Positions 3,001-52,142 of a stretch of 64,000 bases of DNA are shown piece by piece; positions within the stretch are counted from its first letter, which is position 1; each line of letters opens with the position of its first letter. The DNA comes from a virus. The notes below the pieces were generated by a model. It saw only the letters and a list, made by a program, of their open reading frames with translations. It did not search any database and had not been told where the DNA came from. The translations under genes were made by a program, and so were the position numbers. The stretch spans positions 1 to 64,000 of IMG/VR virus record IMGVR_UViG_3300010403_000002; one strand, written 5' to 3'.

Positions 3001-3820
3001 GAACACGATCTCGACCCCTGGTAGGGTCAATGCCTCAGCGTTGGGTGGCACGATTGCGGCGGGGGTGTTTCCGACCCTGACCGGTGACGTGACGACGCCG
3101 GGCGCGTCGCTGGTGACCACCATCGCCAACGATGCGGTAACGTTCGCCAAGATGGCCAACCTGGCCACGAACCGGCTGATTGGGCGCTCGACTGCTGGCA
3201 CGGGCGACCCTGAAGCCATCACACCTGGCTCCACACTCTCGCTCGCTGCTGGCACGCTCGACGTAGCCAACCAGGGCATCACCTTTGCCAAGTTCCAGAA
3301 CATCGCAACCGCGCGGGTGCTGGGACGCTCGACGGCGGGCAGCGGCTCGGTCGAAGAGATCAACATCGGCACAGGTTTAGCGATTATTGCTGGCACGCTC
3401 TCCGCAACGGGGGGTGGGACGGCCATCACGGTCAAGGACGAAGGCTCGACGCTTGGCACTGCTGACACGATAGACCTGGTGGGCGCAGGCGTGACAGGCA
3501 CTTTCGCTGGCACGACTCTGACGATCACGGTTCCTGGCGCCGGTACGCCGACGTTTGGCTACGCGGCGGTGACGGGTGCGACCTACACAATCTCAGGAAG
3601 TGACAATTTCCTGAAGTGTGACACATCGTCAAACGCGATCACTATCAGCATCGGCGCGAGTGGTACGGCTGGCCGTCCGCTGAGGGTGTGGAAGTCTTCG
3701 ACGGACACAAACATTTGCACGATTTCGGATGGCACAAATTCTTATCAGATTTACGCACCTGGGGGCGTCTATGATTTTGTTGGCTCAGGTAGCGCATGGC
3801 TGGCTAGCCTTTCGAACTAG
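1..3820 (+). CDS. Tail-fibre-like repeat protein, 5' end cut by window edge
   Basis: The reading frame is open from base 2, so the true start lies outside the window and the internal GTG at 53 is probably not the start. About 1270 residues are visible. They are rich in Gly, Ser, Thr and Ala, with a segment of the LNSTTKGFLPPRMTTTQRD type that is common in phage fibres and adhesins. A nine-Gly linker lies near residue 950. Two copies of an A(V/I)TFAK-LIGRSTAGTG-type fibre repeat follow, at nt 3130-3270 and 3270-3390. The C-terminus has a compact beta-rich domain ending in FVGSGSAWLASLSN. It is likely a receptor-binding or fibre component, first of the plus-strand fibre cluster. Whether it has a signal peptide like its neighbours cannot be seen. 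Confidence 0.8.
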   Translation, partial: AITLPATTDSSNPNARYVVRFYSTNNTPLAFWQCPSSATELRLPPTVNNWADLCTYNGSVISAPNASAYTKDEFNQMHPSCAEGKLVGYTSAGLTQTCITPGTGLQLTGNTLNAAGGGSGSAPAGSGTELQIRQDAITLGALLNSASSGSSLALGGAVNASALLTLNSTTKGFLPPRMTTTQRDAIASPTQGLIIHNTTTEQLNGYVKATDGTSRWQTLIGDNLTLQNPHVGAPDTAISYGLAWNFVTAGTSTAPNFSTEVGQSLAMYVTNGQNDIDQAGKKTYQVQSLTMNARGSGQRVARGLALNCFGVGDCIGEDMTITMAGSLSSSGDEGFKWQRFAIQELNGLQYSTVTSIPAQATINTTLSGAVTRNISEQPVPVGSSAGVVAGQWMIVDDGAPTSTGYKRSEAVKVTAVPDGTHITGVFTHNHDAGAVVVPATVLVVSSTNNWGPGRTLVNMSATAYTTGTARCNPCGDGAMIVGSGTSWASNMLTGGTANNPGAISFEADDVTTSPFSPSSRLRAWYPILQVNSSVSLSNYRASQVGQGANYYGLATSLGNYTIRPAARLMSFDSINDYFAQTVVLSPNSFTWQVGDIVELAHSTSFDGGGATWDFKMYLPGQTYRDGLNIRNSGMRDFATGLTIGIYPASTPQGWWTTGADISGRSTGLRVGSEGNAISINSTDNITNPAGKISWSIGPSIQYSSTNGGLLIDPFAGGANSLAFKHPSVISESLPRAEFTGTWLLQGVGSNNPYLQLNGQSSRVYRLQSDGAATNALTARVSVDGGSTWGDVWRWGSEGLNVLKTVTATNGSNWPSYKQIFTASIYNGSAAVDKTWFFRVDPLSNSANADQKWSVWRPTSNASFPVAILSAETSGKFTFGIQDPLGGGIEAVRAAVFDPTGITAGQTRTYTMPDVSATLATRTGTFVTDNCVKVDANKNFIDAGVTCGGGGGGGGSVTSITAGAGLQSSTTNPITTSGALSIVTGGVTNAMLAGSITDDKLNTISTPGRVNASALGGTIAAGVFPTLTGDVTTPGASLVTTIANDAVTFAKMANLATNRLIGRSTAGTGDPEAITPGSTLSLAAGTLDVANQGITFAKFQNIATARVLGRSTAGSGSVEEINIGTGLAIIAGTLSATGGGTAITVKDEGSTLGTADTIDLVGAGVTGTFAGTTLTITVPGAGTPTFGYAAVTGATYTISGSDNFLKCDTSSNAITISIGASGTAGRPLRVWKSSTDTNICTISDGTNSYQIYAPGGVYDFVGSGSAWLASLSN

Positions 3821-3851: not shown

Positions 3852-4484
3852 CTATCGTGAGTGTTGGCTGTGACTGTGAAACCGGCGCGGTGCGGTGGTC
3901 TCAGGCTGAACGAGTGTCACATCTGGAATAGAGTAATCGCTATCAACTCTGAATGGAGAAATATCGAATTCGAGTTGCGGGGGACGAGTGGGAACAGGAC
4001 GCCAACTGTGATTGCCATCCCACCCAATCACCGTTGCGAAAATTGTCCACCGTTGAAACGGCTGCCAGTCGCTAGCGAACACCGCGTGCTGTATGTAACT
4101 CCCAGCGTCAGAGCAGCAGTGTTCGGTTTCGTAGATCATTAATACCGGGGCGTTCGGGTTATCCAGGCGAAACGATTTTGCGCCCTTGATCAAGGTGAGG
4201 CCGTATCTCTCGCAAGCAAGTTGCACGTCAACATAGTTCGCCTTGTATGGTATCCAAGACAGGTCTTCGGTTCTGCCCATATAAGCTAGCCCTGTGGCAA
4301 ATGCGCGTCTTAAGCATCCGCCAGACGACTGGCGCGTAAGCCCGCGCACAGTGGTAGCTAGCGACTCGTCGGAGTCAACGATAGGCATGGGAGCTACCTT
4401 GTTGGTGCTCGCCACGCCAAGTTGGAAACTTAAGGAGCAGCAAGCGATCAGTAATGCCAGGGCGCTCAGTATTGTGTATTTCAT
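3852..4484 (-). CDS. Secreted protein, possible papain-like fold (moron)
   Basis: This gene encodes 210 residues starting with a signal peptide (MKYTILSALALLIACCS); the Cys pair might act as a lipobox, although the context is not canonical. The mature part has Cys57 in a GGCLRRAFA segment and His133 in IQHAVFASD, separated by a hydrophobic VLMIY strand. That order recalls papain-like C39-type peptidases, but the resemblance is weak. The gene runs against the late plus-strand fibre genes and starts 35 bp from the divergent gene at 4520, so it looks like an independently expressed moron. No firm function can be given. Confidence 0.6.
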   Translation of the reverse strand: MKYTILSALALLIACCSLSFQLGVASTNKVAPMPIVDSDESLATTVRGLTRQSSGGCLRRAFATGLAYMGRTEDLSWIPYKANYVDVQLACERYGLTLIKGAKSFRLDNPNAPVLMIYETEHCCSDAGSYIQHAVFASDWQPFQRWTIFATVIGWDGNHSWRPVPTRPPQLEFDISPFRVDSDYSIPDVTLVQPETTAPRRFHSHSQHSR

Positions 4485-4519: not shown

Positions 4520-5125
4520 ATGAAAAAGACACTGATTTTATTGGCTCTTTGCCTGAGTCTCTGCGCAAGCCTTGCTCAGGCTGGATTGGCTCAATCGCCC
4601 AGCGGTGAAGCCTTACCGATACCATGGAGCATTGCGCCTACGCCGTTTGGGCCACAACAGGTGGTAATGGGCTGTCTTGTGTATCACCCTGGGGTGATTT
4701 GTGATTATTATGAGCGGCGACCCGCGCAAGACCCAGTAGCTAAGTGGTTACGTGGCGTAGGCGGCGCGGGCACGGGCACGCCTGAAGAGATTCCGGTTGC
4801 TAGGACGTTTGGCGTGGGTATAGACGGTGGCGGTGGTGGCCCAGTCGCCAGCATCACGGCGGGCGGGCAAGCCGGTAGAACGATTGGCATAGATGCGCAC
4901 CTCGCCGAATGGGTTGAGGAATCCTACATGGAGAATGGTAAGCTGATTCTGGTCAAGCGCGGCATCAGCACTCCGTCACTTACGACGTGCGCAGGAACGG
5001 ATTGCTTCGGCGAGCAAGCTTGGAAGGAAATCTATACCGCCAAGGACGGCCAGATAGTGCTTGAGCGCATCATCAGAGGCAAGATTATTCCTGCGCAGGC
5101 TGAGCGGGTAGAGTGGCCGGAGTGA
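4520..5125 (+). CDS. Secreted hypothetical protein of fibre cluster
   Basis: The product has 201 residues. The start was chosen at the ATG that begins a clear Sec signal peptide (MKKTLILLALCLSLCASLAQA); the upstream in-frame extension has no signal-like features. The mature protein has a Gly-rich stretch (DGGGGGPVASITAGGQAG) like the linkers of the neighbouring fibres, four to five Cys residues and a charged C-terminus. It is not assignable to a known family. Its linker and position suggest a small fibre-associated or accessory surface protein. Confidence 0.7.
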   Translation: MKKTLILLALCLSLCASLAQAGLAQSPSGEALPIPWSIAPTPFGPQQVVMGCLVYHPGVICDYYERRPAQDPVAKWLRGVGGAGTGTPEEIPVARTFGVGIDGGGGGPVASITAGGQAGRTIGIDAHLAEWVEESYMENGKLILVKRGISTPSLTTCAGTDCFGEQAWKEIYTAKDGQIVLERIIRGKIIPAQAERVEWPE

Positions 5126-5131
5126 TGGCTA

Positions 5132-5491
5132 TTACTGTCCAGCTATGCGCTTTTGCACGGCTGAACGCTGTACGCATAGCCGGGCTTGAAACTCATCTTC
5201 GGCGCGCTTCAGCTTGGTCTCGAATGTTACAAGACGCTGGCAGGAAGGTAACGAGCGACGAAGCTCAGACCACGCAGGCGTGCCGACCGACACGCTTTCA
5301 CTTTTCTCCACTGTCTCGTTGCATTGCGATGCTAGCACCCTTGTGGTCAATGTTAGCTCTTCAATGAGTGCCGGGTAAAGCGTTACGTCAGACACAAGAT
5401 AGGTTGGTTGGACTTCCTGGGAAGTGCCTGACGCAACCAAGATATAGCCGCACAGTAGGACTGTGCATAATGTTGTAATTAGGTGTTTCAT
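5132..5491 (-). CDS. Small secreted protein (moron)
   Basis: The product has 119 residues. The start at 5491 is preceded by a good Shine-Dalgarno (GGAG, 5 nt upstream) and begins a signal peptide (MKHLITTLCTVLLCGYILVASG); the longer in-frame ORF to 5590 lacks such a site. The mature part is alpha-helical and charged, with three Cys residues and no recognised family. It lies tail-to-tail with the plus-strand gene ending at 5125, so it is one of several minus-strand insertions in the fibre cluster. Confidence 0.6.
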   Translation of the reverse strand: MKHLITTLCTVLLCGYILVASGTSQEVQPTYLVSDVTLYPALIEELTLTTRVLASQCNETVEKSESVSVGTPAWSELRRSLPSCQRLVTFETKLKRAEDEFQARLCVQRSAVQKRIAGQ

Positions 5492-5574
5492 TTGCTCTCC
5501 TTGTGGCATCAAGTGTGCGATTAACAGCCTGCTGAGTATACCTGTCCACCGAAGCGATAACAATGAAAACTGAA

Positions 5575-5763
5575 CTATTTCTTGTTGCATTGCTCGCAGC
5601 TAAATTGAAGATAGTCGTCGTTATTTGGAGGCGGTGTAGGCATAGGGCCAGACCGTAACTTGCCAAAACTCTTGAATCCCTCAGTCTCATACTGACCGAC
5701 CAGTATGAGACCGCCGTCGATCTGAAGCTTTACTACCATAGCGTCGAATTCTTCATTGTTCAT
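5575..5763 (-). CDS. Small hypothetical protein
   Basis: The product has 62 residues and starts MNNEEFDAMVVKLQID. It has no signal peptide and a C-terminal CEQCNKK. Shine-Dalgarno support is weak. It lies between the divergent tailspike gene (5784, plus) and the secreted protein gene at 5132-5491. The N-terminus looks like a plausible folded beta unit, but it could be spurious. Confidence 0.4.
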   Translation of the reverse strand: MNNEEFDAMVVKLQIDGGLILVGQYETEGFKSFGKLRSGPMPTPPPNNDDYLQFSCEQCNKK

Positions 5764-5783
5764 AGTCTGATTTTACCATCACA

Positions 5784-7961
5784 ATGACATTCAAAGCACT
5801 TCTTTTCGTATTATTCTCAGTGCTGGGGCTAGCTCTGCCCGCATCCGCCCAATCACGCTTCTTGCCACGGTTGGCTGATGATCCCTTCCGCCCAGCGCAG
5901 CCTGTCGTCAAGTACGAGACAATCCGTGCCGCGCGTGTGACGCCAATAGCGGTGCAGAACTCGGTGCTGGGGCGCGTGTTTCACGTGACAGCGTTCGGTG
6001 CTAAGGGCGATGGTACGACCAACGACACGCCCGCTATTATGAAGGCAGTGGCTGCCGTGAATGCGAATGGTGGCAGCGGCATTGTTGAATTCCCATCAGG
6101 TACGTTCTTGTTGACGCCGGGCAATCCGGCGAGCGATTCAACAAACTTTATGGTGACAGGCTCGGCGGGCGTGATGCTCAACTTCACGGCTACCAACAGC
6201 ACCGTGCGCCTGTCACCCGCGACCACGATCAAAGTTGTAGCCAGTTACCTCTGCCAGAACGCGGCGGGGCAGTTCGCCTCCTGCACGCAGACCCTGTTTG
6301 GCACGTCTGCCTCACCTCTCGCCAACTTCCGCATCCAGGGCAACGGCGGCAAGATCACATGGGCGACCGACACGGAGAACGGCAGCGGCTCGTCTGCTGC
6401 GCGCGTGACGGTGTTAAACGGGGCGAATGAGTTTTACTTTTTGCGCGGCAGCTACCGAGATCCGGAATGGCGCGATTTCGAGACGCAGGACTTCCCGCGC
6501 AACATTGCTCTCGATGGCGGCTACACTGATGGTAGTGGCAACACGCTCACCGATGCGCGCGTTTCCAACTGCAAATTTACTAATTATGGAGGAGCAGGAC
6601 ACGACTTAAACTCCTACTGGCAGGGGGGCAATACAGTCACGGATTGCCTATTTGAATCGCATCGTCAATGGGCATCACACGAGGTGTATCTTGGCGCGGC
6701 CAAGATAGGCAATCGGTTCGTTCGGTGCAAATTCAAGCGGTCAAATGCTGATGCTTCGCTAACTAACAAGTATGCCCTTCAGAGCTACAGTGAGGGCGGT
6801 AGCGGGGATGTGGCAGGCTTGTTGGTGGAAGATTGCGACTTTGAGGGATGGATTGCCGCAGTGCTGGTGCAGCATGCAAATATCTCGGTCTCTGGCAAGG
6901 TCGTGCGTGATGTCCAGTTCGTCAGATGTAAATTCACAGGCGATGGTACGAACACGGCGATGGCAATGGTGGACCCGAACGATTGTAGTGTCGCTTATTG
7001 CACTTTCGATAACTACCTGACGGGTATCAGCGCGACGAACGGCACGGTGAGCGGGAGCAACTTCACGGTCATCCACAACAAGTTCAAGACCGTCAAAAAC
7101 TGGGTCATTACCGGCTCAGCAATCGCCGACTCCCACGTCACCGACAACTACGGCACTACGCCGATAGTGGGTGGTGTGCTCTTTAATTGCCAGGGCAAGC
7201 GTGGCCACATCAACCGCAACCACGCCATCAACGCAGGCGGTAGTGGGACGGTGGGATTTTACATTGCGGGGGACGGCACAGAGGCGGTCGGCAATGAAAT
7301 CTTCACCGACAACAGTGTCGCCTATACCGAACTCTTTGACTTCCTGTCCGGGGCGGGCTGGACGTTCGCTGGCAATGTGGTCAACTCGAACGCCTCCGGC
7401 TACTCGCTCTTCAGTGGCAGTGATTTCAAAATCATCGGCAACACGTTCTCGGAGCGCACCATCGTCGCCGCGGGAGCCACCGGTAACAATCTCGTCTCGG
7501 AGAACATTTTCAACGGCTCGCGCGGCAAGCCTGAGATGCGCGGCACGGCCAACTTCATCAACAACGTTGCGATCAATGGCCCTTACGTTGCGACGGGCAG
7601 CGACGCCGCTGGCTTCAAGAACGCGCGCGGCAACACTTGGAATTCCTCAAACCTAATTGATACGGTCATTGCCAACGCCACAGGCACCTACACGCCGCAC
7701 ACCAATCTGTATGCGGTGTTTGCGCTCACACTGACGGGCAACACGACGATTGCCGCCTCGGAGACCACGCCGACCGACGGGCGCGCGATTACATTCATTC
7801 TCACCGAAGACGGCGTTGGTGGGCGCACCATTACCTGGAATTCTCAATATATCGTCAGTTGCACGCTCTCCACCGGGGCAAATGTGCGCAACACCGTCTC
7901 GTTTATCTACAACGCCACGCTGGGCAAGTACGTGCAGACAGGCTGCACGACTGGCCTGTAA
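5784..7961 (+). CDS. Tailspike-like beta-helix protein with signal peptide
   Basis: The 725-residue product begins with a Sec signal peptide (MTFKALLFVLFSVLGLALPASAQ, cut after AQ). Residues about 65-110 carry the pectate_lyase_3 signature (VTAFGAKGDGTTNDTPAI). A long right-handed beta-helix with repeating N-x-F/C-x-F rungs follows to about residue 610. The C-terminal domain of about 80 residues has the ALTLTGNTTI...GGRTITWN pattern seen at the ends of many phage fibres. Family knowledge suggests a polysaccharide-binding or -degrading tailspike. The signal peptide is unexpected for a virion protein assembled in the cytoplasm, so a secreted depolymerase is the alternative. Confidence 0.85.
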   Translation: MTFKALLFVLFSVLGLALPASAQSRFLPRLADDPFRPAQPVVKYETIRAARVTPIAVQNSVLGRVFHVTAFGAKGDGTTNDTPAIMKAVAAVNANGGSGIVEFPSGTFLLTPGNPASDSTNFMVTGSAGVMLNFTATNSTVRLSPATTIKVVASYLCQNAAGQFASCTQTLFGTSASPLANFRIQGNGGKITWATDTENGSGSSAARVTVLNGANEFYFLRGSYRDPEWRDFETQDFPRNIALDGGYTDGSGNTLTDARVSNCKFTNYGGAGHDLNSYWQGGNTVTDCLFESHRQWASHEVYLGAAKIGNRFVRCKFKRSNADASLTNKYALQSYSEGGSGDVAGLLVEDCDFEGWIAAVLVQHANISVSGKVVRDVQFVRCKFTGDGTNTAMAMVDPNDCSVAYCTFDNYLTGISATNGTVSGSNFTVIHNKFKTVKNWVITGSAIADSHVTDNYGTTPIVGGVLFNCQGKRGHINRNHAINAGGSGTVGFYIAGDGTEAVGNEIFTDNSVAYTELFDFLSGAGWTFAGNVVNSNASGYSLFSGSDFKIIGNTFSERTIVAAGATGNNLVSENIFNGSRGKPEMRGTANFINNVAINGPYVATGSDAAGFKNARGNTWNSSNLIDTVIANATGTYTPHTNLYAVFALTLTGNTTIAASETTPTDGRAITFILTEDGVGGRTITWNSQYIVSCTLSTGANVRNTVSFIYNATLGKYVQTGCTTGL

Positions 7962-7977
7962 TTACACAAAGGAACCT

Positions 7978-8499
7978 ATGAAACGCATTTTCTTTCTGAC
8001 TGTTTTCTGCTGTCTCTCATTTAGCGCCTTTGCGCAAACACCGAACGGCCCCGCAGCCAAACCTGCGCCTACGAAGTCTGAGACTGCGGACAATACGACA
8101 TATCTGCCTATACGCACTGACAAGCAAGCTAGAGCGGGTGCCGCGGGCGATCAGAGCCTGAAGGCGTATGGCAAGGGCGACGAAATCACGAGCGATCCAC
8201 CAAAGCTCACCCCTGCCGAGCAAGAGGCGGGCAAGCTCCTCTCAAAAGACATCACCACCGCGCAGCAACTGTTGCAGGCAGCGCAGAAGATCATTGATAA
8301 AGGGATCGGTGACGCTGATGTCGAATTGTATATGTACAGGTCGCGCGAGCAGCAGCTCAACATCTTGAAGGGGCTAGACGTGCAGAAGGAGAAATGGTTC
8401 GCCAGTGTGTGGCAGAGGTCGGGTTGTGATCAATGCGCGGTTGATCTTAAGACAGGGGCGCTCACGAAGCCTGCGCCAGCCGAGGCTCCGAAGAAGTAA
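7978..8499 (+). CDS. Secreted helical protein of fibre cluster
   Basis: The product has 173 residues. ATG 7978 has an AAGGA site 6 nt upstream and opens a signal peptide (MKRIFFLTVFCCLSFSAFAQ). The mature protein has a Pro/Ala-rich linker, then a helical region (LTPAEQEAGKLLSKDITTAQ) and a CDQC pair near the C-terminus. The last 38 nt overlap the convergent GT-C-like gene tail to tail. No family is recognised; it could be a periplasmic chaperone or fibre accessory protein. Confidence 0.65.
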   Translation: MKRIFFLTVFCCLSFSAFAQTPNGPAAKPAPTKSETADNTTYLPIRTDKQARAGAAGDQSLKAYGKGDEITSDPPKLTPAEQEAGKLLSKDITTAQQLLQAAQKIIDKGIGDADVELYMYRSREQQLNILKGLDVQKEKWFASVWQRSGCDQCAVDLKTGALTKPAPAEAPKK

Positions 8500-9595
8500 C
8501 TGCCCGTTTGCGGGGAAGGCCGAGCGCCTGGATGCTGACATACAGACTCAGCGCGGCTAGGCCAAAGTGGAAGGCCGCACGCAGCACAAAGGGCAGGGCC
8601 GAAATGCCCGTGCCGGTGTGGGCGTATCCAACGGCGACGAAACCGACGAGCAGGGCTGTATAAAGGGTGCGTGCGTTGGCGAGCGAGACCGTGCCTGCAA
8701 CAACCAGCGCAAACGGTAGGAATAAAACCACACTGCGCTCCAAGTCGCCGCAGAAACTAATTGGCAGCGCGAGCAGCAGCGCGGCGCAACAGCGCGTAAA
8801 GGTTGACATCGTGCCTGCACGCCATGCCCGAAAAACTCCGACCGCTGCTAATAGGTAAATGGGCCAAAGCGCCGTCCAGAGCGTCAGGAGCAACGCCTGC
8901 GCTGCGCGCAGCACTCCGAGATCATAGAACGGCTGCAAATTATAGGTAAGGGCATAGCGCAGAAAGTCGCCCTGGGTGTCCACTCCTTGCGGGGTGCCAC
9001 GCATGCCAAGCCAGACTGCGAGCGGTAACAGCAGAAGCCACAGCAGCGACCTGCGCAGCGGGTAGGCACAAGCCGCCCAGGGCAACAGTAGCAGGATGCC
9101 GTACTCCTTGGTGAGCGCCGCCAGACAGACCAGCGGCAGTGCCAACAGCGCGCGCTCACTTTGCAAACAAAGCGCGATCAGGCAGGCAAGCAGGAGTAAC
9201 AGCGGGTCGGTCAAAATCGGTTGCCCGCCGTAGCGCGCGATTTGCAGCGCCACGCCGAGTAACAACACGGCTTGTGGGAAGAGTGGCACAGCGGCGCGCT
9301 GAAGTAGCAGCCAGAGAGCGCAGAGGGCCGCAAGTAGGCAGAGCGGCGTGGTCAGTCGAAAAGCGGTCAGGGTGTCGGTGTTGAACAGTGCCGCCAAGTG
9401 TCCGGCCAGCCAGGGCACGACCACGCGCAAGTTGTAAGGTGAACCCACTTGGCCACCTGCGGCCATCAGGTTGTAATAGTAGCTATCCCACCCGACGCGG
9501 TGGGAGCCGCCTGCGTAGAAGAACAAGTAGCAGTAGTGCGCCGCGCCAGCGACGAGCGCGACGAATAGCGGCCAGAGCTGGCGGTGTTTGGTCAT
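8462..9595 (-). CDS. Polytopic GT-C-like glycosyltransferase candidate
   Basis: The 377-residue product has about nine to ten hydrophobic helices. A loop after helix 1 carries GWDSYYYNLMAAGG and the LRVVVPWLAG segment, and an internal LTKEYG motif follows helix 5. Both patterns recall GT-C-fold lipid-linked sugar transferases (ArnT or mannosyltransferase type). In phages such enzymes change host surface glycans and so block superinfection. The start codon overlaps the stop of a 31-residue membrane peptide (ATGA), implying translational coupling. It is moron-like: antisense to the late fibre genes. Assignment to GT-C is by pattern only. Confidence 0.6.
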   Translation of the reverse strand: MTKHRQLWPLFVALVAGAAHYCYLFFYAGGSHRVGWDSYYYNLMAAGGQVGSPYNLRVVVPWLAGHLAALFNTDTLTAFRLTTPLCLLAALCALWLLLQRAAVPLFPQAVLLLGVALQIARYGGQPILTDPLLLLLACLIALCLQSERALLALPLVCLAALTKEYGILLLLPWAACAYPLRRSLLWLLLLPLAVWLGMRGTPQGVDTQGDFLRYALTYNLQPFYDLGVLRAAQALLLTLWTALWPIYLLAAVGVFRAWRAGTMSTFTRCCAALLLALPISFCGDLERSVVLFLPFALVVAGTVSLANARTLYTALLVGFVAVGYAHTGTGISALPFVLRAAFHFGLAALSLYVSIQALGLPRKRAVTSSEPRLAQAS

Positions 9596-9687
9596 CGTGT
9601 AAGAGCGTAAAGAAATCCCAGAAACAGTGCCAACGCGAGCAGGAAGAGAAGAAGGTCAAGGGCTTGCTTGCGCTTTGGTGTCGCCAT
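9592..9687 (-). CDS. 31-residue single-span membrane peptide
   Basis: The ORF begins MATPKRKQALDLL, then continues with a Leu/Phe/Ala-rich span and ends ALTR. It has a basic N-terminus and one transmembrane helix. Its TGA overlaps the ATG of the GT-C-like gene (ATGA), a standard coupling arrangement. A GTAGGA site lies upstream. By analogy with phage serotype-conversion operons, where a small flippase-type membrane protein precedes the glycosyltransferase, it may assist that enzyme. It is much shorter than GtrA, so this is inference. Confidence 0.5.
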   Translation of the reverse strand: MATPKRKQALDLLLFLLALALFLGFLYALTR

Positions 9688-9733
9688 TCGCCGCACATCC
9701 TACGCCTCGTCAGTCAAAGCAGTCAATAAAGCT

Positions 9734-11746
9734 ATGCGTAAATCTATCATCATTCTGAGCCTGTTATGTGCGCTCTGCTTGAACGTCCACGCGCAAAAAG
9801 TCACCTACACGGCGGGCAAGATCGAGTATGTGAATCACGACCCGACGGGCGAAGCCTGCCAGCGTGACGCCGCGCGCAAGACCGTTGACGGAGTAGTTTA
9901 CACTTGCGCCAATGGTGTGTACGCGGCCATCGGCGGAGGCGGCGGAGGTTCGGGCACAGTCACCAACAGCGGCACGTTGACCTCTGGCAAGGCCATCATC
10001 GGCAATAGCGGTGTGCAGGTGAAGGCTAGCAAGCTGACCATCACCGACCCGGCAACGACGGCGACGCTCACCATTGCCGACAACAAGACCCTAACAGTCT
10101 CGAACACGCTCACCTTCACGGGCACCGATTCATCATCGGTAGCCTTTGGCGCGGGCGGCACGGTGCTGTACAGCGGCGGAGCACTCGGCACGCCGTCTTC
10201 CGGGACATTGACCAGCGCCACGGGCTTGCCCCTGACAACAGGCGTAACCGGTACGCTCCCGGTCGCCAATGGCGGGACAAATCTCACTGCCGCCGCTGAC
10301 GATAATGTAATGGTGGGCAACGGCACGACCTGGCAGACGAAGGCGCTCACTGACTGTCAAGATTCGAGCGGCAATCACCTTAATTACAACGCCACTACCA
10401 ACGCCTTCTCCTGCGGCACGAGCAGCAGCGGGAGCGGTCTGACGATCAATACGTCCACCATTACGGGCGGCACGACCACGCGCCTGCTCTTTGATAATGC
10501 GGGGACGGTGGGCGAGATCTCGGGGCTTACGTCAAACGGCTCGACCACGCTGGTGCAGACCAGTAACGCCGCCGCCGCCTTCGAGTCTGGCCCGAATGGC
10601 TCGACCAACCCGGTCTTCCGTCTCGTCAACAACACAGCGAGTGCGGCCACCGGCCTCTCTATTACCGGCAACGCTGCCGGCTCGGGTGTGACGCTGACGG
10701 CTCTGTCCTCTGGCTCCAATGACAGCATCAATATCGTCTCAAAGGGAACGGGGGGGGTGCGTGTCAACAGTGGCGTGCTTACCACCATTGTAAGCGAGGT
10801 TAATAACTTTTCCGTTGGCACGCCGAATGGTGCGCGCGTGGTGGTTGGCGATTTTAGTGCTGGCACGCCAGTGCTATGGGTGCAGAATGCTGCCGCTACC
10901 GTGACGGGCTATGTCGGCCACATTGACGGCTCGAACAACATAGTATTTGGGTCTTTTACCGCCCATCCGGTGGTCGTCAAGCAAAATAACGTGACGGCGC
11001 TGACGATTGACACCAGCGCCAACTTTGGCTTCGGGACGGCCACCTTCGGTACATCGGCGGCAAAGGTGCTAGCCCTTGCCAGTGGCACAGCGCCGACTTC
11101 GCAGCCCGCCGACATAGTGCAGGTGTGGTCTTCCGATTTCGCGGCTGGCGATGCCCGGCTGCGCGTCCTGAGTGAGTCCGGCGCACGCATCAGCCTTGGC
11201 AATAATGCGCTTGTCTTCGCCACGGGCACGACTGACGACACTGGTATCAAGCGCGTGGCGGCGACGGTCACAGGGTTCACTGATGGCGGAACCTCGAACC
11301 TGGGCTGGTATCAGTGGGCGGGTGAGTGCTTCCTGGCGGCAGATGCGACCAGCACGAGCGCCACGCTGGCCAATCTCTCCGGCTGCACGATCTCTGGCCT
11401 AGTCAGTGGGCGCAAGTACACCTTCGAGGCGAAGCTGTTCGCTAGCAACAGCGTAGCAGGCGAAGGCGTCAAGATTGACTTTAACGGCGGCTCGGCGACG
11501 AGCACCAACTTCATTGCTCAGTGTGAGGGCTTGGACTCCACATTGACCATCAACACTCAAGTGTCAGCACTGAACACGGCATGCTCGGCGGCCACCTTCA
11601 CGGGCAATGGGTTCATCCGCGTGACTGGCTCGTTTGAGCCGTCCGGGAGTGGCACCTTCATCCTCCGCTTTGCCGAGAACAGTGCTTCGAGCGGTACGTT
11701 GACAGTGAAGCGCGGCAGTTCGATTCGGATGTACGACAGTCCTTGA
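9734..11746 (+). CDS. Tail-fibre-like protein with signal peptide
   Basis: The 670-residue product starts at ATG 9734, where a signal peptide begins (MRKSIIILSLLCALCLNVHAQ). A short N-terminal domain with two Cys (to about residue 60) leads to a Gly6 linker. The fibre repeat follows: ALGTPSSGTLTSATGLPLTT, then GTLPVANGGTN, typical of long tail fibres. The rest is a Ser/Thr/Gly-rich beta-structured shaft. The C-terminus (about residues 520-670) resembles a carbohydrate-binding beta sandwich (FEAKLFASN, GSFEPSGSGTFILRFAENS). It is probably an adhesin or fibre. Confidence 0.8.
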   Translation: MRKSIIILSLLCALCLNVHAQKVTYTAGKIEYVNHDPTGEACQRDAARKTVDGVVYTCANGVYAAIGGGGGGSGTVTNSGTLTSGKAIIGNSGVQVKASKLTITDPATTATLTIADNKTLTVSNTLTFTGTDSSSVAFGAGGTVLYSGGALGTPSSGTLTSATGLPLTTGVTGTLPVANGGTNLTAAADDNVMVGNGTTWQTKALTDCQDSSGNHLNYNATTNAFSCGTSSSGSGLTINTSTITGGTTTRLLFDNAGTVGEISGLTSNGSTTLVQTSNAAAAFESGPNGSTNPVFRLVNNTASAATGLSITGNAAGSGVTLTALSSGSNDSINIVSKGTGGVRVNSGVLTTIVSEVNNFSVGTPNGARVVVGDFSAGTPVLWVQNAAATVTGYVGHIDGSNNIVFGSFTAHPVVVKQNNVTALTIDTSANFGFGTATFGTSAAKVLALASGTAPTSQPADIVQVWSSDFAAGDARLRVLSESGARISLGNNALVFATGTTDDTGIKRVAATVTGFTDGGTSNLGWYQWAGECFLAADATSTSATLANLSGCTISGLVSGRKYTFEAKLFASNSVAGEGVKIDFNGGSATSTNFIAQCEGLDSTLTINTQVSALNTACSAATFTGNGFIRVTGSFEPSGSGTFILRFAENSASSGTLTVKRGSSIRMYDSP

Positions 11747-11800
11747 TGTGTCTCAGTCTTGAGCGCGTCCGCCTGGTTCCTCTTCTTACCTATATCTCAA

Positions 11801-13264
11801 ATGAAAAGACTTCTTGTTATTGCTAGTTTGTTGCTGGCCGCGCTGCCTGTGTGCGCGCAAGTGCCAGCCAACATCCAGGGCGCGACCGTGGGCGCACTCC
11901 CGACGGCCTCCGCTAATACGGGGAAGGTGTACGTCGTGACTGACGGTCTGACGGCGGGCGACTGTGCTGTGGGTGGTGGCTCGACGCGCGTCCTCTGCCG
12001 CTCGGATGGCTCTACGTGGACGGCGCTTGGTGATGGCAACACTGGCAGCGGCAATCCGTTCGCAGACTCGACGGCGATCATTAAAGGCAGTGGCGACGCC
12101 TCGAAGCTGTTGCGCATCGAGGTGGACGGCTTCACGTCAGGGCAGACGCGCGTAGTTACACCGCCCGACAGTGACACTAAGCTGCCGATTGCCGATCAGT
12201 TCTTAACCTTCACGGGGCCGACCGCCGCACGCACCTACACGATGCCCGATGCGAATCGGACGCTTACCAGCACGGCGGATAATCTCTCAGTATTTGCGGC
12301 GACGACCTCCGCGCAGTTGCGGGGCGTGCTGAGTGACGAGGTTGGGAGCGGGGCAGCAGTCTTCGAGAACGCGAATGCGACGTTAGGCAATATTACGGTA
12401 AGTGGCTGTACGGGGTGTGGTGGCGGTGGCGCGTCTGACGGCTCTGGCACTGAATTACAACGCACTGATGGCGCGGGCGGGTTTGTGAAGGTAACAGGAA
12501 GCAGTGTGAGCGGTGGGGCGGTCACGCTAGCATCGCCGCTAACCATCGCTGACAATGCTGCCGTTATATCACTGAGCCTGACTACTACACACACGGTTGG
12601 CAGTTATTTGTCTTTTAATAGCGGCGGGTCGCGTTTGATAGGCAACACCGGAAGCGGTTCCGGTGTTGGCGCAGATAAGTTTAGTATATATGGTGGCAGC
12701 CATGTCTTTCTAGTTGATTTTGCAAGTGGTGTAACAGGCATCAACCAGACTGGTGCCTCGGCTCAGTTGCACGTAACTTCAGGTTCAGCGTCTCGCGTTA
12801 CCGCGATCTTCCAGGCTGCGGCAAGCGATTCAGTAGATAAAATTCAAGTGCAAGAAAGCGATGGCACTGTCAAGTTCGCAGTAGACAAAGACGGCAATGC
12901 CCTTATTGGCGCGGCTGGTTCGCCGTCCGCCAACGGCGGGAAGGTGCTAGCCTTCGGCGACAATGGTTCAACTAATCCCACGATGGCATCTAACACTGCG
13001 GGCATATTTGCTAAGGACGTGAGCGGCACGGTTGAGGCTTTTGCAGTGGACGAAGCCGGAAACTCAACGCAAATATCTCCTCATCGCCCTGGCACGGATC
13101 AATGGTACTTCTACAGTTGTAACTCACGCACTGGCCGCTGTGTTGAGGTGGATATGGAAAAGCTGGTCAGGACTGTAGAGAGTAAGCTAAACGTCAAGCT
13201 AATGAAGGAATGGTACGAACAGCCCAACTTGTTTCAACCACCTTCAGGGAGCGTGTACAAATGA
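11801..13264 (+). CDS. Tail-fibre-like protein with signal peptide
   Basis: The 487-residue product has a signal peptide (MKRLLVIASLLLAALPVCAQ). Residues about 20-70 form a small module with GKVYVVTDG and CAVGGGSTRVLCRSDGSTW, shared with the fibre at 14075 (paralogous N-termini). A TRTYTMPDANRTL fibre motif, a Gly-rich linker and a Ser/Gly shaft follow. The C-terminus is charged (VEVDMEKLVRTVESKL) and may form a trimeric coiled coil. Its TGA overlaps the next ATG (ATGA). Confidence 0.8.
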   Translation: MKRLLVIASLLLAALPVCAQVPANIQGATVGALPTASANTGKVYVVTDGLTAGDCAVGGGSTRVLCRSDGSTWTALGDGNTGSGNPFADSTAIIKGSGDASKLLRIEVDGFTSGQTRVVTPPDSDTKLPIADQFLTFTGPTAARTYTMPDANRTLTSTADNLSVFAATTSAQLRGVLSDEVGSGAAVFENANATLGNITVSGCTGCGGGGASDGSGTELQRTDGAGGFVKVTGSSVSGGAVTLASPLTIADNAAVISLSLTTTHTVGSYLSFNSGGSRLIGNTGSGSGVGADKFSIYGGSHVFLVDFASGVTGINQTGASAQLHVTSGSASRVTAIFQAAASDSVDKIQVQESDGTVKFAVDKDGNALIGAAGSPSANGGKVLAFGDNGSTNPTMASNTAGIFAKDVSGTVEAFAVDEAGNSTQISPHRPGTDQWYFYSCNSRTGRCVEVDMEKLVRTVESKLNVKLMKEWYEQPNLFQPPSGSVYK

Positions 13265-13647
13265 AAAAGAATCTAGTTATTGTACTGTTACTCTGTTTCA
13301 GCCTAAATCCGTGGGCGTCTCGCGCGGGTGACATTGGCGGTGCGCGCGTAGTAACGCCCACGCCCGGTTCTACCGTCACTATCACAATTAGCACCGACGC
13401 CAGGCACACAATCGCAACCTGGACGGCTGCGGAGGCCGAGACCGTCAACGTCTCAGGTACGCCGCTGGATGGCGCAACAATGACCTGGATCATCGTAAAC
13501 GATGCCACATTGGGGCGTGTTATCACGTTAGGCACTGGCACACTCGGCATTGGTATCGTCACTGGCATTATCAGCAAGAAATCAACCATCGCCTTCGTCG
13601 CTTATGGTGGAACGTTCCATGAGACTGGACGGGCGGTTGGCCTGTAG
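13261..13647 (+). CDS. Secreted stand-alone fibre C-terminal domain
   Basis: The 128-residue product starts at the ATG overlapping the previous stop. A signal peptide (MKKNLVIVLLLCFSLNPWASRA) is followed by one beta domain with TWTAAEAETVNVSGTPLDG and GRVITLGTGTLG. That pattern is normally seen at the C-terminus of longer phage fibres. Here it stands alone, so it may be a detachable tip or cap that assembles on the product of the upstream gene. Confidence 0.65.
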   Translation: MKKNLVIVLLLCFSLNPWASRAGDIGGARVVTPTPGSTVTITISTDARHTIATWTAAEAETVNVSGTPLDGATMTWIIVNDATLGRVITLGTGTLGIGIVTGIISKKSTIAFVAYGGTFHETGRAVGL

Positions 13648-13660
13648 TATGGAGGACATA

Positions 13661-14071
13661 ATGTACAAATGGTTCAATGGTAAATGGCAGATGCGTATGC
13701 TGGCCTGTGTGATTGGCCTGGTGGTCGCGTTTAGCGGCGGCGCAATTACAGGGCAGGTTCCCACTAACACAATCCTGACTATCAAGAATGCCAACGGTGC
13801 GGTGCTCAGTGGCGTCACCTATCCTGATGCTTTCCTCATTGCCTTCAAAGACAGTGCATCAAAGACGGAAATGATTGATGCCTTTGCCTCAGCATACGGG
13901 TATCAGGCAACTATCAATGGCTCACCCAATCCGCAAACCAAATTATTATTTGCGGCAGAGAAGCTGAACGGGTACTTACGAGATATTTATAGAGCAGAGC
14001 AGATTAGGACGGCTGCCGCCACTGCCAGCGCGACTGCCGCCGCAACTGCCGATACGAAATTTCCACAATAG
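13661..14071 (+). CDS. Membrane-anchored or secreted hypothetical protein
   Basis: The 136-residue product starts at an ATG 5 nt after GGAGG. The N-terminus has a charged-aromatic stretch, then a hydrophobic segment (MLACVIGLVVAFSGGAITG). The mature part ends in an Ala/Thr-rich tail (TAAATASATAAATADT). It lies between two fibre-domain genes in the same operon. No family is recognised. Confidence 0.6.
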   Translation: MYKWFNGKWQMRMLACVIGLVVAFSGGAITGQVPTNTILTIKNANGAVLSGVTYPDAFLIAFKDSASKTEMIDAFASAYGYQATINGSPNPQTKLLFAAEKLNGYLRDIYRAEQIRTAAATASATAAATADTKFPQ

Positions 14072-14074
14072 CTT

Positions 14075-15286
14075 ATGAAACCAGCGATACAAGTTGTTAC
14101 TCTATGGTTTCTGCTTGGCGCGCTCGGAATGGCGCAGGTGCCAGAGAACCCTAAGCAGGTTATCGTTTCCGGCTTACCTAGTTCGGCGGCTGGCAAAGAC
14201 AAGGTGTATCTCGTTACCGACGCGAGCAGCACATCGGACTGCACGGTGGGCGGCGGCTCGTTGCGCGTCAAGTGCCTGTCCAACGGCTCGACCTGGCTCA
14301 GTCTGACGGCTGATTATGTTCCCAAGTCTGTACAGATCAACGGGAATACACTCAACACCGATGTCACGATCACCGACGCGAACCTCTCCACGTCGGATGT
14401 GACGACGAACAACGCCACAGCATCAAAGCACGGCTTCTTGATGAAGCTAAGTGGGTCATCGTCTGATGTGCTCAAAGGTGATGGCACTTGGGGCACGGTA
14501 AGCGGCGCGGCACATAATCTGCTTTCGTCCACGCACAGCGATACAACCACTGCCTCGGCAACGCGCGGCGATGGGCTGTTCGCGGTGGGCGCAACTCCAA
14601 CTTGGCAGCGGGTTGCCAAGCCCTCGGTTACTGGTGGCTATTTCAAGTGGAACGGCACTGATATAGTCGCGTCCACTCTGGCGGCAGCCGGGACAGGTTC
14701 TTGCACCAATCAGGTCGTCACGGCTGAGAATGCCGACGCTGCGCCGACTTGTACAACGCTCACGTCCAGCTATGTCAACACCTCGATTGCCCAAACCGGC
14801 GTTGACATAAACACCTCACATCAGGTCACAGCCACGCACTTATCCGCCGCGCTGCCCATTGCTCAAGGGGGAACAGCGAACACGACCGGCGTGCAGACCT
14901 ATGTGATGTTCAGCACGACAACAGCCCCGGCTTGTAGTAACGGCGGCGGCACTACGACATTCATCGGTATAAGTGGCGCGGGTAACACAACGGAAACGAG
15001 TGTGTCTCGCTACGTAGTACCCCTGGCTGGCACGGTGAAGAATCTTCGGGTGTGGTTGGGTGCTGGGGTTCCATCAAGTGAAAGTGCCGCCGCGAAGGTA
15101 GTTTTGAACGGCTCTGCTCAAGCAAATCCCACTTGTTCAATTGCTGCGGCTGGTACGACTTGCAATGATACGAGTAATACTCTCGCTGTTGTGGCAGGTG
15201 ACACGCTCAATGTCCAAATCAATTGCTCTGGTGGCACTAGCGCATTAAACGCACGAGCAGCAATCAGCTTTACGATTCAGCAATAA
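14075..15286 (+). CDS. Tail-fibre-like protein with signal peptide
   Basis: The 403-residue product has a signal-like N-terminus (MKPAIQVVTLWFLLGALGMAQ). Residues 21-80 repeat the module of the fibre at 11801 (KVYLVTDA, CTVGGGSLRVKCLSNGSTW). The mid part has the fibre signatures ASKHGFLMKLSGSSSDVLKG and AAHNLLSSTHSDTT, and later LPIAQGGTANTTG. The C-terminal domain of about 120 residues has four Cys that could form disulfides outside the cytoplasm. It is the last gene of the signal-peptide fibre cassette; the next gene follows after 15 nt and has no signal. Confidence 0.8.
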   Translation: MKPAIQVVTLWFLLGALGMAQVPENPKQVIVSGLPSSAAGKDKVYLVTDASSTSDCTVGGGSLRVKCLSNGSTWLSLTADYVPKSVQINGNTLNTDVTITDANLSTSDVTTNNATASKHGFLMKLSGSSSDVLKGDGTWGTVSGAAHNLLSSTHSDTTTASATRGDGLFAVGATPTWQRVAKPSVTGGYFKWNGTDIVASTLAAAGTGSCTNQVVTAENADAAPTCTTLTSSYVNTSIAQTGVDINTSHQVTATHLSAALPIAQGGTANTTGVQTYVMFSTTTAPACSNGGGTTTFIGISGAGNTTETSVSRYVVPLAGTVKNLRVWLGAGVPSSESAAAKVVLNGSAQANPTCSIAAAGTTCNDTSNTLAVVAGDTLNVQINCSGGTSALNARAAISFTIQQ

Positions 15287-15301: not shown

Positions 15302-16477
15302 ATGCCATTTTGGGACATATTCCGAAACGCAGGTCGGCGTGTGGGCGACTTGTTCGACGAAGAAGAATTGCTGCGGACGCCTGGCATCAATCCAGACGTG
15401 CAGCATCCGCTCCGCCGTCCGCTCATCAATCGCCCGCAGGCTTCCCCCGTGCTCGACGACGGCTTGCGCGACGATGCACCAATGGCGACACGTCCTCGCT
15501 TGGCCGTGCCACCTGCCGAGCTGGAGACGAGTCCGGCAACGCGACCGCGCACTGTTGCACCGCAAGCTGATTTCAACCCGCAGCCCGCGCTGGGCGCATC
15601 GCGCCCGCGCTTCGCGGACGAGTACGACAACACGCGCCACGAAGCGTTGCTCGGCTTGGACGAGAAGGCGCGACAACCGGGTGGACGGCGCAAACTGGCC
15701 TTGCAGAATGCGCTGCTTGGCGCGCTGAGCGGTATCGCCAATGCGTCGCGCAACCCTCACGCAGGCTGGCGCGAGATGTTGGCCGGGGCTGCGGGCGGAG
15801 CGGGAACCGCCGGGATCGTGAGCGCTGCGCGTCCCGACCTGGGCGCAAACCTGAATTGGGAAATGGTGGGCCGTCCGCGCTATGAGCAGGAGCGGGAGCG
15901 GCGCGACATTGAGAGCACGCGCGTGCTGAAGCGGCGCAAAGGAGAGGCCGAACTGGCGACGGAGGAGTCACAGCGCCGCAACTATGAAGACCAAATGACA
16001 ATGCGTGGGCGCGAGAGTAGCAGGCAGGATGAAGAACTCCGGCTGCGACAGCGGCAGACCGAGCAGCAACTCAAGCTCGAGCAAGCCAGGCTGGAAGCCG
16101 TCCAGCGTGGCACTCCCTCGCGGGTTGACCTCGAAGAAGACGATGGCACGGTGAGCACTTACAACATCTTCCCCGACGGCACACAGGTCTATTTAGGTAA
16201 AGCGGCGCGCGATCTCTACGAGCGCCGACAGGCGACGACCAGCCAGGCCAATACGCAGGCGCGCATCCAGGCAGGCGACCGCCGCACCGATAAGCAGATA
16301 GCTGCTGGTGATCGCCGGGCGCAGAGCCGGGCAACAGCCCCGCGAGCGTCAAGAGCTAAGCCTATAACATACGTCCCGCGCGCAGAGGTTGAGCAGTACG
16401 CCAAGGATCGCGGCAAGACCTTTGAACAAGCCCTGTCCGACTTGATGAATCTGGGCTACAGGCTGGCACCAAAGTAA
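15302..16477 (+). CDS. Coiled-coil structural protein (internal virion type)
   Basis: The 391-residue product has no signal peptide. An amphipathic N-terminus (MPFWDIFRNAGRRVGDLF) is followed by a Pro/Arg-rich linker and a short hydrophobic Gly/Ala region (ALLGALSGIANA, AGAAGGAGTAGIV). A long charged coiled coil (about residues 195-265) rich in Arg, Glu and Gln comes next. Directly upstream of the giant polyvalent protein, it fits an ejected internal virion or neck protein. No specific family is recognised. Confidence 0.55.
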   Translation: MPFWDIFRNAGRRVGDLFDEEELLRTPGINPDVQHPLRRPLINRPQASPVLDDGLRDDAPMATRPRLAVPPAELETSPATRPRTVAPQADFNPQPALGASRPRFADEYDNTRHEALLGLDEKARQPGGRRKLALQNALLGALSGIANASRNPHAGWREMLAGAAGGAGTAGIVSAARPDLGANLNWEMVGRPRYEQERERRDIESTRVLKRRKGEAELATEESQRRNYEDQMTMRGRESSRQDEELRLRQRQTEQQLKLEQARLEAVQRGTPSRVDLEEDDGTVSTYNIFPDGTQVYLGKAARDLYERRQATTSQANTQARIQAGDRRTDKQIAAGDRRAQSRATAPRASRAKPITYVPRAEVEQYAKDRGKTFEQALSDLMNLGYRLAPK

Positions 16478-16482
16478 CAGTA

Positions 16483-19400
16483 ATGCCACAAGACGCTTTC
16501 GCACAATGGCGCGCGGAGCGGCGCAAGACGGGGAAGCCTGCACCAGCCCCGACTCCTTTGGATGATCTGACGGAGTTTGCGCGTGCGCGTGGCGCAACCG
16601 TCACGAGCACCAATCGTGGCCGCCACAATCCAGGCAGCGCGCATTACGACAACCGGGCGATTGATGTGCGCACACGCGACCGCTCGCCCGCCGAAGTCGA
16701 GGCGTTGATGAATGACGCTGAGTCTTCGGGTTATGCCGTGCGTGACGAACGGCAACGTCCGTCCGGTCAGCAGGTCTGGGGCGGGCCGCACTTGCACCTT
16801 GAAGCGCAGGAGCCGCCCGACGACTTTGCGCAGTGGCGCGCAGAACGGCAACGCCCGCAACCTCGCAATGAGCCGCAGATAGGCCCGCGCGTCGCACAGC
16901 CAGCGACCGCAACCGATCCCTTTGAGCGGCAGCAGCCTGTCAGCATCGGTGGCCGCCCGCTCGTCACCCCAACACAGCCAGTCAAGCTACCCGCTGTTAA
17001 TCTGCGTGAGGCGCGTCGCCAGGCTCGTGATTTTACCGTTCCGCCCGAGCTGCAATCTCCCACTCCCGAACAATTCCAGAACGAGTTACAAGCTACGCGC
17101 ATCCAGCGCGAGCAGGCACGGCAGGCCTATGTCGCACAGCAACAGGCCAAGGTCGCAGGGCAGGGCAGGCTCGCAGAAGCCGGGACACGCTTCGCGCGCA
17201 GCGCAGCTAAGTCAACCGTCGCCCCGTTGGAGATGATCGCTGCCAGCCAGCCGACGGAGATTGGCGAAGAGGCGGTGAGGCGAGCGTCCGGACTGCCGCA
17301 GCTCGATACCGCGCTTGATGAATACTTGCCGGTTGATCCGAGCAAGCGGATGACGGCCAATCCGCTTGACCCGGACTTCTACTCGGTCACGATCCCGGAG
17401 GTCGCGGGCAACGTTGTCCCGATGATCGCTACCGGTAAAGTGCTGCCAGGCGGGCTAGCCTCGCGACTTGGCGCGACGGCAACCGGGATGATGCAGGCTG
17501 GGGGGCAGGGCTACCGTGAAGCGCGCGAATCCGGGGCAACCCGCGAACAGGCTCAGCGCCACGCCGGAGCCGAAGGCGTGATCGCTACGACAGAGATGCT
17601 GGGCGGCCAGGCGGCGCTCGGCAGTGCAGTGCGTCCCGTGGCGCGCGAGGTCGCTAAGGACATTGCCAAGGACGTAGGCCAAGAGGCTTATCAGCAGTGG
17701 CTCTCGAACCTCAACGCGGCTGATTACTCGAAGATTGACCCGCAGCGCGGCGAGTTCGAGGACGTGCCAGTCAGCGCGGTGGGTGGCGCACTGGTCAGCG
17801 GCGGGATGAACGCTGCGCACGCTGGCGCGCAACGTTTTGCCGGGAATCGCGCACAGGCCAGAGACACCGCCACCGTGCAGCAAGAACCCCTCGCGCCGCC
17901 ACAGATGCAGCGCACGGGCCAGTTGCGACCCACGCAGGTTGTCCCGCGCGCACAATTGGAGATGGCAGCCAGGCAGGGCACAGCGCCGCAGGCTGCACCA
18001 CAAGCCGCACCAGGAGCCGAGGAAAACCCGCTCGAGGCCTTCTTGCGCGAGCGGACGGGGAAGCTGGCTGAAGTAGCGCCAGCCGCTGAAGTAGAGAAGC
18101 CCTTGAGTGCGATTGCGCGCCGCAAGCTCGCGCAGGAGCAAACACTGCGCGAACGTCAGACACAGGCTCAGCAGAGCAATATGGATGCTGCTGATCAGCG
18201 CGCGGAGATGCTGCGGCGCGGTGATCTGGCGGGCGCGGCTGACCTACTGGCCGGGGAACTGGAAGTCATCGGCACGCAGTTGAAGGATGCGCGCAAGCTG
18301 GGCGATGTTGAGATGCAGCGCCGCCTGGTGGTATCGCGGCAAGCTGCTGAGCGCCAATATGACGAATTGCAGGCGCAAATCAAGCAGCAACAGCGCGCTG
18401 TACGTCCCGTGGCTCCGCCCAAGGCTGCCAGGCCACCCAGAGTGCCGCCGAGCGCCGAGAACGAGCCTCCACAGGTACAGCAGCGGGCGAACGCGCCAAC
18501 GGCTGAAGCGCCGCAGCAATCGGGCAAACTGCTCCGCTCGGTGGTCAACCCCGAAGGCGGGGTGCCTGTCGTGCAGCGGGCGACGCCGAGTTTTGAGAAC
18601 CTGGCCGAGCGTGAGGGTCGTCGCGAGTTCAACAGCGAAGAACTGGAAGGGAATCGTAACCTCTGGCAGTTCGTGAAAAAGCAGGGTGGCGTGCAGCGCA
18701 GCGTCGCCAATCGGGGCGAGTTGAGCTATCTGGTCGGCAGGGAAGGCGGTGCGCCCGGTGTAGTGAGCGATGCCGGGCTGCCAGTGGACGAAATGCGGCG
18801 CTACGCGAATGAGGCAGGCTTTGGGCCTTACGAGACCGAAGACGACTTCTTGCAGGCGCTGCGGAGAGGCCGGAACGAGTTTTCAAACGCGCGCCGTGTG
18901 AGCCGCTCGCTGGCTGACGAAGAAGAGGCTTACTACAGACAGAAGGGAAGCGCGGCGATGGAAGCCCCGGAGTCACCATCGCCGCTGAGTCAATGGGAAG
19001 TCCGGCGACAGGCTGCGGAAGACAAGGCTGTCGACCTGCGCCAGCGCATGATGGATGTCAATGACCAATTAACGCAAGTTGCAGTTGGGCGAGCACGCCT
19101 CTCGGACAGCGAGCAAGAGAGGTTACAACATGACCACATCTACCTAAAGCAGCAATATGCAGAAGCTCAGCAACGATTGCGCGATCTCGAACAGGCAGAG
19201 CCAGGCGAGCACTCGCCCCATATGCAACAAGAGGCTGAGTCCTTAGCGGGTGTAGTGTTTACACCCAGTAAGCCCGCCGAACAAATGACGCGGGCTGAAT
19301 GGGAAGCGCAGCCTGCAGACTGGAAGCGCAAGAACGACCATGAACTTGCCATCATCAAAGCCCTGAAGCACGGCCAGTCTGTCCCTGGTGAGGTCTTGGC

Positions 19401-51910: not shown

Positions 51911-51911
51911 G

Positions 51912-52142
51912 ATGAATCGTAGAGCCTTTGTACAACAGGCTTCAGTGGTGGCGGTTGGCGCGCTGCTGGTTCCAAGCTTGCCCGTGGCTGAGTCTGGCGT
52001 TGATTATGGGCGTGGCATTGAGGCTGCAATTGAATCTCAGCGCGCCATCAACACACTTAGGTCGTTTTGGATGGCTGCTGAGTCGAAGGGGGAGTTTGTG
52101 CACACGAAGCTGAAGTCTTTGGGTGCGAAGAGGATTACTTGA
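51912..52142 (+). CDS. Tat-signal small protein
   Basis: The 76-residue product begins MNRRAFVQQASVVAVGALLV, a twin-arginine signal (RR-x-F) with a modest hydrophobic core and Ala-rich end. The mature part is about 48 residues, helical and basic. A dedicated Tat substrate this small in a phage is unusual. It sits between a secreted protein gene and the terminase. Confidence 0.5.
   Translation: MNRRAFVQQASVVAVGALLVPSLPVAESGVDYGRGIEAAIESQRAINTLRSFWMAAESKGEFVHTKLKSLGAKRIT

Follow-up and report, generated by a model that had tools for sequence, protein, structure and literature searches.

This locus raises the question of why fibre- and tailspike-type proteins of a phage should begin with predicted Sec signal peptides, and where such proteins would fold and act, since the usual view is that the fibres of tailed phages are folded and assembled in the reducing environment of the cytoplasm. 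The window, i.e., the whole stretch of DNA analysed, comprises positions 1–64000 of a 76,215-bp IMG/VR virus record, the ends of which share an identical overlap of 123 bp; the record thus represents a circular or terminally redundant genome and is in effect complete. Judged from its genes, the window phage (G000) is a temperate tailed phage with an integrase gene at 44768, a terminase gene at 52542 (phrog_979, 6e-50) and a portal gene at 56271 (weak match to phrog_156), the latter followed by probable scaffold and capsid genes and then by tail genes. A search for relatives with TerL retrieved a single IMG/VR contig, G001, which is the closest structural relative and was used as contrast; its BLAST matches include the terminase, portal and capsid genes, several further genes of the cluster and the 2050-aa gene discussed below. 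Neither portal and MCP searches for relatives nor a TerL scan of genome contigs gave matches.

Genes of the cassette

The preliminary description listed eight plus-strand genes as bearing Sec-type signals, mostly with A-x-A/AQ cleavage motifs. All eight exist with intact frames at the starts given in Table 1, their predictor scores range from 15.9 to 21.2, and the predicted cut sites are mostly of the type A-x-A↓Q. The list was nevertheless incomplete, as the gene for the 1443-aa fibre, a gene at record position 72650 and two minus-strand genes also carry signals. Likewise, the designation of the locus as a fibre cassette is justified by several fibre or spike modules, but does not extend to the genes at 4520, 7978 and 13661 (and 72650), short genes the products of which show no recognisable fibre character. 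The start of the 13661 gene is uncertain (MYK or an internal MRM), and a signal is predicted from either.

Table 1 Features of the cassette and adjoining genes. Positions refer to the window; the arrow marks the predicted cut site
Feature	Position	Strand	Characteristics
1443-aa fibre protein	53..3820	+	Start at record position 75581, across the circular junction; Sec signal MKKTLLLALLLTLALAVPAYS; DUF5907 repeats (1e-12); 12 Cys in mature part
210-aa exported protein	3852..4484	−	Sec signal ...FQLGVA↓ST
201-aa exported protein, not clearly fibre	4520..5125	+	MKKTLILLALCLSLCASLAQA↓G; 4 Cys
Small exported protein	5132..5590	−	Internal start MKHLITTLCTVLLCGYILVASG probable
725-aa tailspike-like protein	5784..7961	+	Sec signal; pectate-lyase-type β-helix start AFGAKGDGTTND; 12 Cys
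173-aa exported protein, not clearly fibre	7978..8499	+	MKRIFFLTVFCCLSFSAFA↓Q
377-aa polytopic membrane protein, ~8 TM	8462..9595	−	Similarity to a cell-surface glycopolymer family, below threshold
670-aa fibre-like protein	9734..11746	+	Sec signal ...NVHA↓QK; 8 Cys
487-aa fibre	11801..13264	+	Sec signal and 45-aa two-cysteine domain
45-aa domain, first copy	11894..12028	+	Both cysteines invariant; served as bait in the signal-blind search
128-aa protein	13261..13647	+	Sec signal and single fibre-type C-terminal domain
136-aa protein, not clearly fibre	13661..14071	+	Sec signal
403-aa fibre	14075..15286	+	Sec signal and two-cysteine domain as in 11801; 8 Cys
45-aa domain, second copy	14171..14302	+
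Two genes without signals	15302..22635	+	Same strand, directly after the cassette

The tailspike-like protein encoded at 5784 matches Pect-lyase (2e-8) with the start of a β-helix of the pectate-lyase/epimerase type, and has in addition a phage fibre C-terminal domain that is also present in unexported fibres. Its AlphaFold model, calculated without relatives, was uninformative (pLDDT 32) and nothing was drawn from it, and a PHROGs search of the cassette proteins returned no confident match. The fibres encoded at 11801 and 14075 are paralogues over their first 78 residues, having in common the signal and the next 60 residues. The two signal-less genes that follow close the late cluster holding the cassette; the 2050-aa protein encoded by one of them, a homologue of which is present in G001, is probably an ejection protein. 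Taken with the polytopic membrane protein, the signals of the two minus-strand genes indicate that the whole block is envelope-directed.

Predicted signals and their recurrence

Signals were predicted with a rule-based procedure; those of the cassette have a positive n-region, a hydrophobic h-region and a cut site of the A-x-A type. In calibration on E. coli K-12, a score of at least 14 was reached by 15 of 16 known exported proteins and by one of 27 cytosolic proteins (Mqo); as some polytopic membrane proteins also pass, proteins with later transmembrane segments were excluded. Shuffled N-termini of the eight genes equalled the real score in only 0–6 of 500 trials, and 2 of 186 shadow open reading frames passed the predictor. 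Signals without later transmembrane segments are found in eight of the nine called reading frames between 3852 and 15286, compared with 6 of 74 elsewhere (Fisher p = 6e-7). The same pipeline scores 0–7% of reading frames as signal-like in reference regions of P22, T4, crAss001 and N4 and 19% in the window phage, and no signal is present in any of 22 proteins of the tail, fibre or related structural type from those four reference phages.

The 45-aa domain that follows the signal in the two paralogues allowed a search that is blind to the signal itself. Its DNA motif led to phage contigs G002, G003 and G004, where the fibre proteins are also predicted to be exported; a profile of five copies identified five further contigs, all with signals, and a ten-copy profile without signal sequence, run against IMG/VR, retrieved 24 contigs, 19 of them new, with 23 Sec signals and one signal anchor. 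The exception is the G002 protein, the membrane anchor of which ends with AHAQ. In an alignment of ten copies of the domain, neither cysteine varies. The domain searches together reached about 28 uncultured phage contigs, a number that demonstrates recurrence but not the share of exported fibres or phages, since the bait carries the cysteine pair and is biased towards exported proteins. A model of the domain is of fair quality (AlphaFold, pLDDT 77), but Foldseek found nothing significant for it; the top hit was a tailspike depolymerase at E = 3.3, which was not used as evidence.

Cassettes of several consecutive signal-bearing genes are present in G003, G004 and L035, and others are situated close to the domain in L058, L061 and L062. 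In G003 and L035, runs of five and four exported genes, respectively, are located between capsid-region and tail genes; the fibre genes of G002 come after capsid-region genes and directly before tail genes; G004 has a run of four exported genes after the tail genes, followed by a probable endolysin gene; and in L034 the gene for the exported fibre comes after a baseplate gene and two genes for unexported fibres. These placements indicate that the trait crosses tail types. A bacterial origin of the window phage contig, G003, G004 and L034 was ruled out by capsid, portal, terminase or baseplate genes. The modules of the relatives comprise β-helix, Ig, PKD and HYDIN-type domains, with SprB-like modules in some members, and the L061 protein has matches to families of phage virion structural proteins and, over short stretches, to fibre and decoration proteins of cyanophages. 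L061 is from IMG genome 2883713342, which, judged by the number, is probably an isolate or single genome and not a metagenome. Among 50,697 records of named phages there was no homologue of the cassette, only short partial matches, and no description of exported fibres was found in the open-access library searched.

In G001, the fibres of the matching region lack signals, which makes export look like a gained or swapped trait. Between G003 and L035, one signal shows three synonymous and no nonsynonymous changes while the protein body has diverged (dN 0.46), and two other N-termini have been swapped for different sequences that are still signals. In the pair of 2152 and 2156 residues, with 83% overall identity, the first ~140 residues have been exchanged, both versions being signals. 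As far as these small numbers of predicted signals go, signal function is kept while the sequence turns over.

A chance origin of the signals is ruled out by the shuffles, the enrichment and the recurrence. The preliminary description took export as real but paradoxical for virion fibres, and listed display on or release from the host, secreted depolymerases, receptor decoys and assembly through the envelope as outcomes. Export of the cassette proteins as such is a prediction that we regard as nearly certain, backed as it is by the signal-blind domain search and by cysteine parity, both of which are independent of the signal.

Cysteine content of the exported proteins

In diderm bacteria, proteins that are exported tend to have an even number of cysteines (PMC7678975). 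Parity was evaluated in an unselected set of every complete reading frame on these contigs with at least 300 residues, at least two cysteines and no later transmembrane segment. The mature parts of signal-bearing proteins have even counts in 37 cases and odd counts in three (binomial p = 2e-8), compared with 27 even and 18 odd among the others (Fisher p = 8e-4), in a set that is slightly redundant owing to the orthologous pairs G003/L035, L050/L054 and L055/L056. Cysteine content is 1.60% in the signal-bearing and 0.71% in the other proteins. Even counts were also found in 18 of the 19 cysteine-containing exported cassette proteins of the window phage, G002, G003 and G004, and in all 16 complete proteins among those newly found with the domain. 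Enriched cysteines in even numbers are characteristic of mature exported proteins that form disulfides as they fold in an oxidising compartment. Within the fibre C-terminal domain, the cysteine numbers of exported copies (2, 2, 1, 0 and 2) and unexported copies (0, 1, 0 and 0) suggest a similar difference, albeit in too few copies. Both export and oxidative folding are strongly supported.

Virion assembly or free action

What the sequence establishes is that predicted signals are present and concentrated in the cassette, that cysteines are paired, that the arrangement recurs in other phage contigs and that it is placed inside virion gene clusters. The position of the genes speaks for a role that is late and linked to the virion. 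In the explanation that we favour, the fibre- and tailspike-type cassette proteins would be expressed late and exported from the cytoplasm by Sec; after removal of the signal peptide they would fold in the periplasm of the host, forming disulfide bonds. The stored spikes would meet new particles at lysis and attach to them as the last assembly step, as inferred by analogy with T4 gp12 and the P22 tailspike. Export would thereby yield disulfide-stabilised spikes that are kept from cytoplasmic polymers until release. The probability of this statement as a whole, from Sec export through periplasmic disulfide folding to joining of the virion at lysis, we judge to be even.

Joining of the virion is favoured because of the position in the virion cluster, the fibre-type modules and the precedent for late addition of fibres. 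P22 gp9 and other podovirus tailspikes resemble the cassette in having a β-helix or pectate-lyase-like body and a late gene near the tail genes. Addition of the P22 tailspikes to particles is the last step and is possible in vitro. P22 gp9, however, has no signal peptide, and its N-terminus is the virion-binding domain, whereas the cassette proteins start with a Sec signal and have paired cysteines. The short tail fibre gp12 of T4 "can be added after phage completion", according to a note in the T4 record, but unlike the cassette proteins it has no signal and an odd cysteine count. In crAss001, gp22–gp26 form a comparable run of large spike and fibre genes nested between portal and capsid genes, none of them with a signal. 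An N-terminal signal or transmembrane segment combined with binding or adhesion domains is also found in cellular DGR target proteins (PMC8144416); signals are reported there for cellular targets, and the targets of several viral clades are described mostly as tail structure proteins.

Several observations count against this explanation. Behind the predicted cut site, most cassette proteins have N-termini without relationship to one another, so that no single socket on the virion is obvious; a shared post-signal domain is found only in the 11801/14075 pair and in the G003 proteins encoded at 11901 and 22810, and no known virion anchor was recognised. Small fibre genes without signals in the window phage, G004 and L034 mean that an ordinary receptor-binding protein may exist. 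Finally, G001 manages without exported fibres.

The same lack of a common anchor and the presence of small unexported fibres in some phages favour the alternative that the exported proteins act free and never enter the particle, as capsule or slime depolymerases or as soluble receptor binders (decoys) that leave the cell by way of a secretion system (e.g., type II) or are set free from the periplasm when the cell lyses. Secreted enzymes and adhesins typically have canonical signals, disulfides and folds of the β-helix/pectate-lyase or Ig type. On the other hand, the genes lie inside the virion cluster, the C-terminal domains occur also in unexported fibres of G001 and L034, and all recognised large fibre-like genes in the G003 fragment, an incomplete contig, bear signals. 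We consider free action by either route distinctly less probable than an even chance.

A role as surface or periplasmic shields of the infected or lysogenic cell, which would mask or edit the receptor (lysogenic conversion) and thereby exclude superinfecting phages or keep progeny off debris, appears unlikely. It would suit a temperate phage with an integrase, which encodes an exported nuclease elsewhere and in which the minus-strand neighbours are envelope proteins too, one of them weakly similar to a surface glycopolymer protein. The P22 genes sieA and gtrABC (superinfection exclusion and O-antigen conversion) are likewise envelope-acting and close to the tailspike gene; they encode, however, membrane proteins and enzymes rather than exported fibres. 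Against a shielding role, the plus-strand cassette genes are co-directional with the late virion genes and enclosed by them, and an unsystematic look at the exported fibres noticed neither a lipobox nor a sorting signal, an outer-membrane barrel or anything else that would hold them on the host surface.

Alternatively, the proteins could be fibre-like adhesins that come from bacteria and are carried by phages as cargo (morons), with a host role such as attachment or biofilm formation. This would account for the Ig, PKD, HYDIN-type and SprB-like modules, which are common in bacterial surface proteins, but is very unlikely, as several unrelated phages have several of these genes side by side within the structural cluster, and one exact motif of the domain, a narrow query, had no match in GTDB genomes. 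Most improbable is that the hydrophobic N-termini stay uncut, as segments with which cytoplasmic virion proteins bind membranes or assemble, since, even if cleavage cannot be proven by a rule-based predictor, the signals are canonical and three-part with A-x-A↓Q, the cysteines are even and enriched, and one signal is swapped for another in orthologues.

Extended beyond the window phage, the virion-joining explanation would imply that a broad set of uncultured tailed phages, both short- and contractile-tailed, finishes its virions outside the cytoplasm, with spikes made as Sec precursors, folded oxidatively in the periplasm and mounted at lysis; we put this forward tentatively, at slightly below even probability. 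The data point to a way of producing or employing phage fibres that has been overlooked. If a recurrent class of exported, disulfide-bonded fibres is real, then either virion assembly ends with a step outside the cytoplasm, or phages release large sets of free proteins that bind receptors or degrade polymers. For proteins that are currently hypothetical, the combination of a signal peptide, an even cysteine count and fibre modules in a late operon provides a signature for annotation, and either outcome bears on host range, superinfection and the discovery of depolymerases.

Record ends and cassette-associated proteins

Positions 1-123 of the window are identical to the end of L003, a sequence with its own coordinates, and this 123-bp terminal overlap indicates that the viral record is circular and complete; the window start interrupts a fibre gene.

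The 2050-aa protein, which has a homologous counterpart of 1942 aa in G001, the closest structural relative of the window phage, is probably an ejection protein. Two copies of the motif DAFAQWRAER/DDFAQWRAER occur within its first ~125 residues and flank a possible lysin-like domain. The polytopic membrane protein encoded within the fibre cassette matches a cell-surface glycopolymer family weakly, and its gene could serve surface modification in lysogenic conversion.

Coordinates and strands of the proteins and genes discussed
Feature	Coordinates	Strand
Polytopic membrane protein, mid fibre cassette, opposite strand to fibre genes	window 8462-9595	-
2050-aa protein	window 16483-22635	+
Staphylococcal-nuclease-like protein	window 49870-50379	+
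Twin-arginine-like N-terminus	window 51867-52142	+
Twin-arginine-like N-terminus	L003:13903-14238	+
G002 fibre	L021:14570-17608	
G003 571-aa protein	L023:8619-10334	

Predicted export signals in other phage contigs and beyond the cassette

In phage contig G002, ~185 additional N-terminal residues precede a TM segment, AHAQ and the fibre; this protein is a signal-anchor variant of the fibre predicted to be exported. The Sec-signal protein of contig G003, encoded immediately after the capsid gene, is possibly an exported decoration-type protein.

Twin-arginine-like motifs (NRRAFVQ, TRRLFTG), each followed by a hydrophobic stretch, mark two N-termini of phage genes as possible Tat signals. The nuclease-like protein (PF00565, E 3e-13) has an N-terminus, MHARLTLTICLLLLLTVPALA|Q, that clearly resembles a Sec signal, and it is predicted to be an exported phage nuclease; its target may perhaps be incoming DNA in the periplasm.
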